Positions 6,695-22,503 of a DNA stretch of 64,000 nucleotides are shown here, in pieces. Numbering within the stretch: position 1 is the first letter of the stretch; every line of letters begins with the position of its first letter. The notes beneath the pieces are model-generated. The model ran no database searches. It was given only the letters and a program-made list of their open reading frames with translations, and had not been told where the DNA came from. Origin of the DNA: Pedobacter sp. Leaf41 (lineage in GTDB: Bacteria; Bacteroidota; Bacteroidia; Sphingobacteriales; Sphingobacteriaceae); the NCBI RefSeq assembly GCF_001422545.1, contig NZ_LMLE01000001.1, forward strand, positions 249,373-313,372, read 5' to 3'. The position numbers were made by a program, and so were the translations under genes.

Positions 6695-6759
6695 ATCATT
6701 GCGAAGTACGAAGCAATCTCACTCGCAAATTAAATTGCTTCATGCCTCGCAACGACGGA
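6695..6759. repeat. dispersed inverted repeat (TCATTGCGA...GAAGCAAT family), copy 1
   Basis: The left arm TCATTGCGAAGTACGAAGCA and the right arm TTGCTTCATGCCTCGCAACG are imperfect inverted copies about 20 bases apart. A second, better preserved copy lies at 22420-22503. Both are in short gaps between genes and carry no coding capacity. This copy sits between hflX and rbfA. Confidence 0.75.
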
Positions 6760-11816: not shown

Positions 11817-13961
11817 TTACTTAATCACTGTGCCAACCATTTTATAGTCTCTAGGCGGCTCAGCTCCTAATAAATGCTGTACAAAATAATCCCATCTTCT
11901 TCTCATCATGTAAGCAGAATACGGGCCATAACCATGTGCACTATTCGGAAAAATTACTAAATCAAAACTTTTATTAGCCTTTTGTAAAGCTTCAACAACT
12001 AATAAAGTATTGTAAGGTGGTACGTTATCATCCATCATCCCATGAACCAACATGAGCTTTCCTTTTAAATTTTTGGCATAAGTTTGATTGGCTTGCGCTG
12101 CATAATCTACGTTTTCTGCCAATCCATTGTAGCGTTCGCCCCAGTCATCCTCATAATTTCTATTGTCGTGGTTTCCTGATTCTGATATTCCAACCTTAAA
12201 GAAATCTGGGTAGCGGAACATCGCTGCAGCTGTTGCAAACCCGCCGCCAGAATGGCCCCAGATACCAACTTTGGCAGTATCGATTGGGTATTTGGTAGCC
12301 AGTTGTTTGATCGCGGTGATTTGATCTGGCAATGTGTTTTCGGCCATATTGCCATAATTCATATCGTGGTAGCTTTTAGATCGGCCTGGGTTACTTGTTC
12401 CTTCAAGTACCACAACAATAAAACCTAATTCTGCTAAAGCTTGGTTATCGCCACGCGATGCTGAAAAGAACCAGCTGCCCACACTTCCACCTTGTGGCCC
12501 GGGATAAATGTAATCGATTACCGGATATTTTTTAGTGGCATCCATTTTTGATGGCGTAAATACCAAACCGTAAATGTCAGTCTTGCCATCATTAGCTTTT
12601 ACAGTAACTGGTGTAGGCGCTTTCCAGCCTGTTGCAGTTAATCTAGAAACGTCCGTTTTAGCCAGTTCGCTAACTACCTTGCCATTTATATCCTTTAAAA
12701 CAACATTCGCTGGAACATTAGGCTGAGAATAATTATCGATGAAAAATTTTCCGGAAGGAGAGAAAGTAACCATGTGATTACCTGGTTCTGGTGTTAAATC
12801 TTTTAAATTTTTACCGTCGAAACCAATTGTAAAAAAGTGACCAAAATAAGGATTCAATTTATCTTGACCATTGGCGATGAAAAAAAGCGTACGTGTTTTT
12901 TCATCAACTTTAAGCAGCCTTGTAACTACCCAATTTCCTTTTGTTATTTGATTTTTTACTTTGCCGGTAGTGGAGTCATATAGGTACAAATGGCCCCAAT
13001 TATCTCGTTCAGAATACCAGATAATTTCTTTGGTTGCTGGTAAATATCTCCAATTAATGGTGCCTTGGCCAGATTCGAATTGCGTCTTTACGGTTTCTTC
13101 AAATACTTCCCGAACAGCACCTGTGCTTGCATTTGCAATGCGAAATTTCTCATTTTTGTGATCTCTCGAGGTAGATACAAAAGCAACTTCCGATCCATCA
13201 GCTTTCCAATCAATATCATCAAAAGTTCCACTGCTCGAAATGTCATCACTCAAAGTACCACGGTGCGGATCAGGAGGAATGTTTAAAGAAATTACCTTTT
13301 GGTTTTCAATATCGATAACTACACGTCTGATGGTAGGGATTTCTTTATCTCCCGGTAATGGATATTTCCAGGCTTCCAGTTTTGGAGCACCAACATTGGT
13401 GGTTACCAAATACATCTCTTTCGAATTTCTTTGGTCTTGCTGGAAAGTCATAATTTTCTTCGAATCTGGCGACCAGCGTAGGATGGGCGCATCGCTATGT
13501 TTCCACCCAGCATTGTCAGTTGCGTAACCATAGTCCTTCACGCCATCAGTAGTTAACTGAGTGAGTTTGTCTGATGCCACATCTTTCAAATATAAATTAT
13601 AATCTTTAATTAGAATGGATTTTTTCCCATCAGGAGAAAGTACTTCGTCGCCGCCGCCCCTTCTTCTTGCAGTAGGAGGTGGTGAAGCTAAACCTTTTCC
13701 ATATTCTGTAGTTAAGGTTTTCGTTTTCTTTTCAGGATTTACCAAAAAGGTTTGCGTACCATTGGCATTTTTAATAGTAAACCAAAAGTTATCACCTTCA
13801 AGCCAATTGGGTGTAACACCTACATTATCAATGTATTTAGAAGTGTTGTAAGCCATAAAGCTTTCCGCATGTTCATAATCTTTTTCGGTTAAAACTTTGT
13901 GTTGCGCATTTGCCGAAGTCATTATGGACAGGGCAATTGCGGTTAGCCAATATTTATTCAT
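11817..13961 (-). CDS. S9 family peptidase, dipeptidyl peptidase IV type
   Basis: 714 residues. Signal peptide at 1-19 (ASANAQ), so periplasmic or outer-membrane associated. Residues ~90-440 form the DPPIV N-terminal beta-propeller, with several WSPD/WKADG type blades. The C-terminal alpha/beta hydrolase has the nucleophile elbow GHSGGG near 568, the acid in MMDDNVPP near 644 and the His in NSAHGYG near 677. DPP-IV enzymes remove X-Pro dipeptides from peptide N-termini; the strong Pro-Gly loop YPGPQGG near the oxyanion region is as in this group. Single gene with its own terminator. Confidence 0.92.
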   Translation of the reverse strand: MNKYWLTAIALSIMTSANAQHKVLTEKDYEHAESFMAYNTSKYIDNVGVTPNWLEGDNFWFTIKNANGTQTFLVNPEKKTKTLTTEYGKGLASPPPTARRRGGGDEVLSPDGKKSILIKDYNLYLKDVASDKLTQLTTDGVKDYGYATDNAGWKHSDAPILRWSPDSKKIMTFQQDQRNSKEMYLVTTNVGAPKLEAWKYPLPGDKEIPTIRRVVIDIENQKVISLNIPPDPHRGTLSDDISSSGTFDDIDWKADGSEVAFVSTSRDHKNEKFRIANASTGAVREVFEETVKTQFESGQGTINWRYLPATKEIIWYSERDNWGHLYLYDSTTGKVKNQITKGNWVVTRLLKVDEKTRTLFFIANGQDKLNPYFGHFFTIGFDGKNLKDLTPEPGNHMVTFSPSGKFFIDNYSQPNVPANVVLKDINGKVVSELAKTDVSRLTATGWKAPTPVTVKANDGKTDIYGLVFTPSKMDATKKYPVIDYIYPGPQGGSVGSWFFSASRGDNQALAELGFIVVVLEGTSNPGRSKSYHDMNYGNMAENTLPDQITAIKQLATKYPIDTAKVGIWGHSGGGFATAAAMFRYPDFFKVGISESGNHDNRNYEDDWGERYNGLAENVDYAAQANQTYAKNLKGKLMLVHGMMDDNVPPYNTLLVVEALQKANKSFDLVIFPNSAHGYGPYSAYMMRRRWDYFVQHLLGAEPPRDYKMVGTVIK

Positions 13962-14089
13962 AATAGTCAGTTGGTTAATCTTTGGGATAAAATTAAGAGT
14001 GTTTCGTGAGATCAGATTAAATTAGCAAGAATAATACAAATTAACGTTTCTAAAATATGCTTAAGTTAGGTTACGCTAACAGCTTAAAT

Positions 14090-14121
14090 AAAAAATGCCA
14101 TCTTAAAAAAGATAGCATTTT
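14090..14121 (-). terminator. terminator downstream of tRNA-Ser
   Basis: On the minus strand AAAATGCTATCTT pairs with AAGATGGCATTTT (one G-T mismatch pair) and is followed by a T run; it begins directly at the 3' end of the tRNA. Confidence 0.7.
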
Positions 14122-14122
14122 G

Positions 14123-14207
14123 CGGAGAGAGCGGGATTCGAACCCGCGGTACCGTTAAGTACACACGCTTTCCAAGCGTGCTCGATCGACCACTCTGACA
14201 CCTCTCC
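14123..14207 (-). tRNA. tRNA-Ser (anticodon GGA)
   Basis: 85 bases on the minus strand. Acceptor stem GGAGAGG / TCTCTCC (G-U at the last pair), D arm with AGTGG, anticodon stem CACGC / GCGTG with loop TTGGAAA giving anticodon GGA, a long variable arm typical of class II tRNAs (GTACTTAACGGTACC), T arm GCGGG-TTCGAAT-CCCGC and discriminator G. The 3' CCA is not encoded. The GIY-YIG stop codon lies only 3 bases from its 5' end, and a 5'-half copy lies ~290 bases upstream. Confidence 0.95.
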
Positions 14208-14210
14208 GGA

Positions 14211-14453
14211 TTATATAATTTTTTCTTGTTTCAAATAAATGTAACCATTTACCGATTTATAATATTGTTCTCTTCTAAAAGCTTCACCCCTTGTACTAAA
14301 CATTTCATAAAAATGAATAATAAGAGGTCGTCTGCCTTTTGTAGATTTCACATCTCCTTTATTATGTTTAATCAGTCTTGCTTCCAAATTCTCGGTACTG
14401 CCATAATAATATCTTCCATCTTTTAAGCTTTTTAGAATGTAACTATAAAACAT
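14211..14453 (-). CDS. GIY-YIG nuclease domain protein (URI/UPF0213-like)
   Basis: 80 residues from the ATG at 14453; a UUG at 14477 would add eight residues that do not fit the family. Seen: MFYSYILKSLKDGRYYYGST carries the two-Tyr GIY/YIG-type pair, then NLEARLIKHNKG with the catalytic-type Arg, and RREQYYKS with Glu near the end. Small single-domain GIY-YIG proteins of this type are predicted DNA nucleases. The stop codon is 3 bases before the intact tRNA-Ser and the start is ~40 bases after a broken 5' half of the same tRNA, so the ORF looks like cargo of a tRNA-targeting element. Activity is inferred. Confidence 0.85.
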   Translation of the reverse strand: MFYSYILKSLKDGRYYYGSTENLEARLIKHNKGDVKSTKGRRPLIIHFYEMFSTRGEAFRREQYYKSVNGYIYLKQEKII

Positions 14454-14493
14454 ACTATATTTAAAATATGTATCCAAACTTTTTAAATACTAT

Positions 14494-14559
14494 CACACGC
14501 TTTCCAAGCGTGCTTGATCGACCACTCCCCGTAGGGGTCCTTTGGACTGACACCTCTCC
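14494..14559 (-). pseudogene. 5'-half copy of tRNA-Ser(GGA), interrupted
   Basis: On the minus strand this reproduces the tRNA-Ser from the acceptor 5' strand through the anticodon stem-loop, with one base changed in the D arm (CAAGC for CGAGC). It stops right after the anticodon stem and continues into unrelated AT-rich DNA. A 20-base palindromic insert at 14527-14546 splits the D arm. It has no variable arm, T arm or acceptor 3' strand, so it cannot make a tRNA. Confidence 0.9.
14527..14546. repeat. 20-base palindromic insertion in the tRNA-Ser fragment
   Basis: CCCCGTAGGGG followed by a second small palindrome (GTCC TTT GGAC) sits exactly between two blocks that are contiguous in the intact tRNA. 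The CCCGTAGGG core equals that of the palindromes at 54054-54070 and 54335-54351 beside the RAYT-like transposase. Confidence 0.8.
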
Positions 14560-14593
14560 GGAATGGTTTGCAAAAGTAATTTTTTTATTCAAA

Positions 14594-14645: not shown

Positions 14646-16076
14646 TTAATCAACAACTGTAATTTTTAGCATATTAGTTTTTCCTTTCGCTTCTATTGGA
14701 ATTGCCGCAGTATTAATTAAAATATCGCCTTGCTTAACCAATTTTTTGCTTTTTAAGAATTCGTTCACCTCAATAATGGTATTGTCTGTACTTTCCCATT
14801 TATCATAGTAAAAACCTCTAACGCCCCATAATAAGCTAACTGCATTTAAAAGTGCTCTGTTGCTCGTGAAGATGAAAGTTAAAGCTTCCGGTCTGTGGCT
14901 TGAGATTTCAAAAGCAGTATAGCCACTTAAAGTCATTGATACAATACCAACAGCATTGGTTTGCTTAGCTAAGAAACAAGCAGAATCGCAAATCGCATCG
15001 CTCAAGAAAGAGGCAGATTTTGGTTTTAAAAACTTATCAGGATTAAATGGATAATTGTTTTGCTCAATGTTTTGAATAATTTTCTGCATCGTTTCAATAA
15101 CGATCAAAGGAAATTCTCCAACTGAAGTTTCACCACTTAACATTACCGCATCTGCACCATCCAATACTGAATTGGCTACGTCATTCACCTCTGCACGAGT
15201 TGGGCGAGGCGTAGTGATCATGCTTTCTAGCATTTGAGTGGCTACGATTACAGGTTTTGAGGCTGCTCTACATTTAGCAACAATCATTTTTTGTAATAAA
15301 GGAACTTCTTCCATTGGGCATTCAACACCCAAATCGCCCCGGGCAACCATAATACCATCTGTAACCGCTATAATCTCATCGATATTGGCAATAGCTTCTG
15401 GTTTTTCAATTTTTGCAATTACACGGGCAGTTTTACCACGTTCTGCAATAATCTTTTTCAGTTCAATAATATCTTCAGCTTTACGAACGAAAGATAAACC
15501 AATCCATTCTACATCATTTTCTAAAACGAATTCTAGGTTTTCTCTATCTTCTGGAGTTAAAGATGGGATAGAAACCTTTGTGTTTGGAAGATTTACTCCT
15601 TTTCTTGAAGTTAATATTCCGCCGTGAACAATCTCACAAACCACCTCATCTTTAAGATTCGTAGAAATCACTTTCATTTGCAGTTTTCCATCATCCAAAA
15701 GGATGATTTCACCTGCCTGAACATCTTGAGGGAAGTTCTGATATGTTATATAAATACGTTCTTCGTTACCAATGCATTCTTGTGTAGTAATAACGGTGGT
15801 TTTACCATTAATTAAGTTAATCCCGCCTTCTTTTACTAAACCGATACGAATTTTTGGGCCTTGTAAATCTGCAAGGATACCTACATTATAATCGTATTTC
15901 TTATTTAAATCGCGGATGGTATCTAAAACGGCCTGATGATCTGCTTGAGAACCATGCGAGAAATTTAGACGACAAACATCCAAACCTGCGTTAAACATAC
16001 TATATAATACTTCTGGTTTTGCTGATGCTGGCCCAAGCGTAGCAACAATTTTAGTTCTTGAATGAAAAGGTTTCAT
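14646..16076 (-). CDS. pyk: pyruvate kinase
   Basis: 476 residues, full length. N-terminal TKIVATLGPASAKPEVL and CRLNFSHGS, the beta-barrel B-domain insert around 75-170, the active-site signature IAKIEKPEAIANIDEI near 220 and MVARGDLGVECP, then ATQMLESMITTPRPTRAEVNDVANSVLDG; a C-terminal allosteric domain follows. It converts phosphoenolpyruvate and ADP to pyruvate and ATP in the cytoplasm. The next gene upstream on the same strand is the IPExxxVDY protein, whose stop is 151 bases away; a separate -7 element for pyk is seen at 16190. This pyk/IPExxxVDY/acpP/fabF/rnc order is conserved in Bacteroidota from memory. Confidence 0.95.
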   Translation of the reverse strand: MKPFHSRTKIVATLGPASAKPEVLYSMFNAGLDVCRLNFSHGSQADHQAVLDTIRDLNKKYDYNVGILADLQGPKIRIGLVKEGGINLINGKTTVITTQECIGNEERIYITYQNFPQDVQAGEIILLDDGKLQMKVISTNLKDEVVCEIVHGGILTSRKGVNLPNTKVSIPSLTPEDRENLEFVLENDVEWIGLSFVRKAEDIIELKKIIAERGKTARVIAKIEKPEAIANIDEIIAVTDGIMVARGDLGVECPMEEVPLLQKMIVAKCRAASKPVIVATQMLESMITTPRPTRAEVNDVANSVLDGADAVMLSGETSVGEFPLIVIETMQKIIQNIEQNNYPFNPDKFLKPKSASFLSDAICDSACFLAKQTNAVGIVSMTLSGYTAFEISSHRPEALTFIFTSNRALLNAVSLLWGVRGFYYDKWESTDNTIIEVNEFLKSKKLVKQGDILINTAAIPIEAKGKTNMLKITVVD

Positions 16077-22419: not shown

Positions 22420-22503
22420 CGTCATTGCGAGGAGCGAAGTAATCTCATTTGGTAGCCTAAATTTAAATCCTCGGGTAAGATTGCTTCGTGCCTCGCAATG
22501 ACG
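22420..22503. repeat. dispersed inverted repeat (TCATTGCGA...GAAGCAAT family), copy 2
   Basis: The left arm GTCATTGCGAGGAGCGAAGT and the right arm TTGCTTCGTGCCTCGCAATG are near-perfect inverted copies about 34 bases apart. It belongs to the same family as 6695-6759 and lies between gmk and nadD, so it would fold in the transcript. Confidence 0.8.

Follow-up and report, generated by a model that had tools for sequence, protein, structure and literature searches.

A single-gene GIY-YIG element between a truncated and an intact tRNA-Ser gene of Pedobacter, with probable kin in tRNA genes across bacteria

Integrative elements with a tyrosine integrase can attach at a tRNA gene and restore it. Among GIY-YIG proteins, Slx1 works together with Slx4 on branched DNA in eukaryotes; to our knowledge, the characterised relatives use this fold as a DNA nuclease, and we know of no linkage of Slx1/UPF0213 proteins to tRNA. 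In the accessible parts of the reports on phages T4 and T6, SegB is described as a free-standing GIY-YIG homing endonuclease of the phage tRNA region (PMC13096335, PMC2988022) and is reported to drive the tandem amplification of a tRNA segment (PMC13096335). Dispersed REP palindromes with a CGTC tag have been reported without a dedicated enzyme (PMC3733652). The locus described here lies in the window, i.e., the whole analysed stretch of 64,000 nucleotides from Pedobacter sp. Leaf41 (contig NZ_LMLE01000001.1, positions 249,373 to 313,372). It is likely to belong to a class of mobile elements that live in tRNA genes across bacteria and are very small (about 0.35–0.45 kb), integrase-free, of homing type, and made up of a single gene. 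A search of literature other than preprints, with few subscription papers, found no earlier description of this tRNA-gene GIY-YIG class; an earlier report is possible.

On the minus strand of the window, a promoter-like motif is followed by nucleotides 1–13 of tRNA-Ser(GGA) (14547..14559), a 20-bp palindrome (TCCAAAGGACCCCTACGGGG, 14527..14546), nucleotides 14–46 of the same tRNA (14494..14526), a GIY-YIG open reading frame (ORF), three bases, an intact tRNA-Ser(GGA) (14122..14207), and a terminator-like hairpin with a T run (14088..14121). The partial copy as a whole spans 14494..14559. Its second part reaches from the D loop to the end of the anticodon stem with one substitution, and its palindrome, a twin mini-hairpin where the D loop starts, occurs nowhere else in the genome. 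The single-domain ORF occupies 14211..14453 and encodes 80 amino acids from a conserved ATG (up to 14477 if a TTG start is used). The intact, rebuilt gene was located by ARAGORN, a DNA search, and an RF00005 census, and is the sole tRNA-Ser(GGA) found in the Leaf41 genome. The flanking genes are pyk (14646–16076) and a DPP-type peptidase gene (11817–13961). When filled and empty sites are compared, the native tRNA promoter-like −7 motif (TTACTTTTGC, 14570..14579) stands 5′ of the broken copy in the window and 5′ of the intact tRNA-Ser in empty relatives; it probably functions as the promoter.

An initial annotation, made from the letters alone, had described the order of broken 5′ half, ORF, and intact tRNA, a half copy with one substitution and one insert, an ORF stop codon 3 bases from the intact gene, and the absence of an integrase. 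ARAGORN, the ORF coordinates, and the alignment bear out all of this: the GIY-YIG ORF is the only gene between the two tRNA copies, and no recombinase gene lies there. The insert itself had been noted, whereas its palindromic nature and its position in the D loop were missed, as were the promoter-like motif now preceding the broken copy and three further units at tRNA-Asp genes. The proposal of a homing-type, integrase-free element that entered the tRNA with a piece that rebuilds it fits everything tested. The proposed point of entry, behind the anticodon arm, is less certain: any position from the tRNA 5′ end to the end of the similarity could hold the crossover, and it is the D loop that the palindrome marks.

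The encoded protein matches Pfam PF01541 at 1.5e-13, and the catalytic residues R29 and E65 are kept in nearly all or all aligned rows, which places it in the GIY-YIG superfamily. According to Pfam and the AlphaFold model (pLDDT 95.9), the 80 residues form a complete catalytic domain alone, with no further DNA-binding domain. The nearest solved structures are UPF0213 proteins and Slx1, a structure-specific nuclease, and we read the window protein as a bare Slx1/UPF0213-like GIY-YIG domain. The ORF is under strong purifying selection: dN/dS is mostly 0.03–0.15 in comparisons with relatives that differ at more than a handful of sites, and higher (0.35–0.86) in some closely related pairs, on very few changes. 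Several Ser-type ORFs in the genus-wide search contain stops, as expected of ORF decay.

The source genome holds 12 GIY-YIG matches, four of them of the window clade, namely one at tRNA-Ser and three in a tRNA-Asp cluster on contig C8. Each C8 ORF is followed by a tRNA-Asp copy without the 5′ acceptor strand, in which the palindrome TCCCCAATAAGATTGGGGA replaces part of the anticodon arm; the assembly has one N within this array, and the copy number there may therefore be inexact. The other eight matches, which have no tRNA within about 1.5 kb, provide an internal control. With the window protein as query, matches were obtained in 25 of 145 same-genus genomes (E ≤ 1e-12), and all the loci fetched lie near a tRNA gene for Ser(GGA), Arg(CCT), or Leu(TAA), with one tRNA species per protein subgroup.

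Relatives have empty sites. The ORF is absent from 24 of the 30 best tRNA-Ser loci, and none of these 24 carries the half copy. The initial annotation had named a half copy persisting in close relatives without the ORF as evidence against its reading; because no ORF-less tRNA-Ser locus (n = 24) has one, that objection falls away. The sister genome G116 (pyk dS 0.17) shows pyk, the promoter, and tRNA-Ser with the same downstream flank as in the window, without the element; about 20 bp differ just upstream of its tRNA-Ser, and the junction is therefore not a perfect empty site. G116 also has two intact tRNA-Asp genes without a cassette, while the source genome has cassettes after both, and the first insert relative to G116 measures 401 bp. 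Among five Pedobacter species, the dS of the cassette GIY gene is 0.02–0.16 versus 0.21–0.36 for the adjacent pyk. Among some species, the ORF is far less diverged than its neighbour; on these sequence comparisons, the element would be mobile. Some of the empty sites could instead reflect exact excision through the short direct repeat.

The arrangement extends well beyond the genus. In a profile search, 175 of 345 Bacteroidia genomes had members of the family (E ≤ 1e-12). A scan of named genomes yielded 79 loci, with hosts that include Calditrichota, Ignavibacteria, Elusimicrobia, Omnitrophota, Planctomycetota, and many Patescibacteria; the hosts of the class also include Bacteroidota. An assembly artefact was rejected, the pattern also being present in the single-contig genomes G067, G068, G122, and G117, and so was a phage or plasmid origin, with no plasmid matches and three weak phage matches. 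When the pooled loci were scored by script, ARAGORN placed a tRNA within 450 bp in 153 of 175 (about 9 of the 175 being counted twice where two collections overlap), on the same strand in 153/153 and with a partial tRNA copy in 140 of the 153. The chance of a same-strand tRNA within 450 bp is about 0.5% (47 tRNAs in 4.78 Mb). The 175 loci were ranked by protein similarity alone; as the profile derived from tRNA-linked members and the loci taken were the top-scoring ones, the fraction is valid for this clade rather than for small GIY-YIG proteins at large. A lack of association with tRNA genes among the relatives had been the other observation expected to count against the initial reading, and it failed to appear because the relatives overwhelmingly adjoin tRNA genes.

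In all, tRNAs of 19 amino-acid classes are involved. On a protein tree of 163 sequences, the amino-acid label of the tRNA changes 40 times versus 87 in shuffles (minimum 79), which indicates that the target is inherited, yet switches. The recurrence at many tRNA genes points to a widespread, apparently undescribed class of tRNA-targeting mobile elements.

Two mirror forms exist, with the ORF either before or after the intact tRNA. If the ORF comes before, the partial copy precedes it and starts at tRNA nucleotide 1 in 62 of 76 cases; if it comes after, the partial copy follows it and runs to the 3′ end of the tRNA in 66 of 85. Both acceptor strands are kept in only four partial copies. The outer tRNA end therefore stays at the native flank while the inner part is replaced, which is the same formal outcome as tRNA attachment-site integration with reconstitution.

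The partial copies bear palindromic scars. Of 38 deduplicated events with a clean palindromic insert, 36 have it within or at the edge of a D, anticodon, or T loop, where 15.8 would be expected (p about 5e-12). The Ser and Glu scars are twin mini-hairpins of 20–22 nt whose stems vary with the pairing kept; those of Arg and several others are CCYGCC...GGCRGG hairpins, a type that is a dispersed repeat in some genomes, with about 20 places in G179. Exact dispersed copies of one scar type occur in G291, G179, and G019, within other structured repeats; G291 has nine exact copies of its own tRNA-Glu scar sequence, and a reversed-pattern control gave 0. Units can also be arrayed: eight ORF-plus-scar units of 398 bp each stand consecutively after tRNA-Leu in one complete same-genus genome, and at L107 (G251:C9:904500-912000) ten units of ORF and scarred tRNA-Met 3′ end, spaced by exactly 457 bp, follow one intact tRNA-Met. 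At L046, on the reverse strand near a tRNA-Leu pair, a lone palindrome-scarred tRNA-Leu without an ORF stands before an intact tRNA-Leu and is possibly a remnant after element loss.

From this anatomy we infer the following route. The small, structure-selective nuclease would cut an unoccupied cognate tRNA gene in a dyad-symmetric arm, and repair from an occupied copy would install the element, i.e., homing. The element sits within the tRNA gene, whose original outer end remains, truncated, at the native flank; since the element supplies the missing piece, one full tRNA gene is rebuilt beside the ORF. Standing on the same strand, the ORF is probably co-transcribed with the rebuilt tRNA. The loop palindromes of the truncated copy may mark and destroy the nuclease target, so that the scarred site would be blocked from the enzyme. 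Tandem arrays could arise by re-targeting of the intact copy or by unequal recombination, and the ORFs would decay after fixation. The loop preference and the Slx1-like fold together suggest that the nuclease reads a hairpin or cruciform shape. Some points speak against this explanation: the intact tRNA that the element carries ought to be a target as well, the protein is a bare catalytic core, unlike the phage GIY-YIG homing enzymes with their added DNA-binding modules, and about 13% of loci have no tRNA within 450 bp, ten or so of them looking like inverted-repeat elements instead.

These loci without a tRNA bring a different emphasis into play, in which hairpins or cruciforms would be cut by small GIY-YIG proteins that also carry short palindromes and inverted-repeat elements into loops of structured genes. 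The tRNA cassettes would be one branch, where the gene travels with a piece of tRNA. The near confinement of the tRNA palindromes to loops, the dispersal of one scar type, and the kinship with Slx1 and UPF0213 would all suit this account. Some same-clade members without a tRNA have terminal inverted repeats of 13–18 bp, and at L197 (about 1470–2059 of a Doudnabacteria MAG) an ORF with 13-bp repeats interrupts an RNase P RNA gene, recognised by RF00010 at E 7.8e-25, yet below the gathering score. At L113 and L132, likewise with inverted repeats around the ORF, the reading of the flanks places it inside protein genes. G203 (L259, L261–L266) has seven ORF-less nested, MITE-like palindromes built from ACCCCGTWGG, the terminal inverted repeat of this GIY-YIG element type, and two patescibacterial members (L239, L244) lie just upstream of tmRNA genes; at the Rfam gathering score, the tRNA-less loci gave no known RNA family other than tmRNA. 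As an explanation of the window locus, this account is nonetheless rather improbable, given that the window palindrome stands alone in its genome, that most tRNA elements have no terminal inverted repeats, and that no transposition was seen. The inverted-repeat loci, the ORF-less palindromes, and the tmRNA loci do suggest a wider palindrome-linked GIY-YIG element family. It is conceivable, and we propose it tentatively, that small GIY-YIG genes form a new class of bacterial mobile DNA, whose bare structure-selective nuclease would transfer palindromes or inverted-repeat elements into structured-gene loops. One branch would rebuild tRNA, another would have ACCCCGTTRGAT-type terminal inverted repeats, lie in genes for RNase P RNA or for proteins, and include palindromic derivatives that lack the ORF, and a third may be the missing enzyme of the CGTC-tagged REP repeats.

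Readings without mobility at their centre fare worse. An ancestral tRNA gene duplicated in tandem with a passenger ORF and then simply inherited would explain why the tRNA target partly tracks the protein tree. Such a static history is scarcely credible in view of an anatomy that recurs at many tRNA species and positions, the 40 target changes, the empty sites in close relatives (24 of 30 tRNA-Ser loci), and a cassette dS far below that of the neighbouring gene; the two empty tRNA-Asp genes of G116 already contradict it. Alternatively, the protein could act on the tRNA or its expression (processing, addiction, or a toxin-like role), with the adjoining intact tRNA as immunity or cargo and mobility as a secondary matter. 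The ORF is indeed always on the same strand and close by, and in the window it separates the native promoter from a tRNA gene that is single-copy and should thus be essential, and the loss of the ORF would therefore have to be exact. Truncated palindrome-scarred copies, arrays, and insertions into RNase P RNA and protein genes are left unexplained by this role, and the DNA nuclease fold of the characterised relatives, as far as we know it, also argues against it; we regard it as very unlikely. The homing-type tRNA element is the explanation that we prefer.

If that explanation holds, one-gene, integrase-free elements persist over much of the bacterial tree in the cell's most conserved genes, restoring the genes that they disrupt. 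Many annotated small GIY-YIG ORFs and truncated tRNA fragments would thereby be explained. The paired occupied and empty tRNA genes of 19 amino-acid classes offer ready targets for studying how a bare GIY-YIG domain finds its site, which matters for our understanding of homing, of how REP-like palindromes arose, and of compact site-specific nucleases.

Several known systems share part of this picture. Group I introns in tRNA genes, as the accessible text describes them, have a homing nuclease gene within a tRNA gene and the logic of homing, whereas no splicing is needed here and a complete tRNA gene adjoins the ORF (PMC3984707). Rather than a tRNA interrupted by a self-splicing RNA, an intact tRNA is present, and Rfam found no group I intron in 22 loci related to the window locus. 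The REP/RAYT systems link short dispersed palindromes to one small nuclease-type gene; however, RAYTs are HUH tyrosine transposases, and the enzyme linked here is of the GIY-YIG type (PMC3733652). The palindromes are dispersed in G179, G291, and G019, and that of the window is not. Three other small GIY-YIG genes of the source genome, L001, L002, and L005, have palindromic repeats with a CGTC tag on their flanks. The one at L005 (GTCATTGCGAGGNACGAAGCAATC), with copies on both sides of the gene (C9:203535 and C9:203937), has over 100 matches in the genome and 0 for the reversed control. The same CGTC-type repeat occurs in the window at 6695–6718, 22421–22444, and 22479–22502 (G000:C1:256067, 271793, 271851), and a GIY-YIG enzyme may serve the CGTC-tagged REPs of this genome.

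In fold and sequence, Slx1/UPF0213 proteins are nearest to the window protein. In construction, the nearest described relatives are phage SegB and the tRNA-rebuilding integrative elements. The latter also insert in a tRNA gene, carry the restoring part, and leave a truncated copy at the other end, and the window locus likewise has a restored tRNA and a far-end partial copy. Instead of a site-specific recombinase, it has one 80-aa nuclease gene within about 0.4 kb, palindromes occur in the truncated copy, and either tRNA end may be truncated. With SegB, in the accessible parts of its reports, the element shares a GIY-YIG gene beside tRNA genes, where SegB promotes the inheritance of the tRNA region, and tandem amplification; the empty and filled sites would fit copying into a gene-less allele. 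SegB is a phage protein encoded between tRNA genes, and those parts describe no truncated tRNA copy with loop palindromes for it, whereas the present element is chromosomal, has a rebuilt tRNA, and encodes the catalytic domain only, where SegB-type enzymes combine a catalytic and a DNA-binding domain. The element works like a homing or a tRNA-attachment element and, having neither the DNA-binding domain of the one nor the recombinase of the other, is therefore assigned to neither class.
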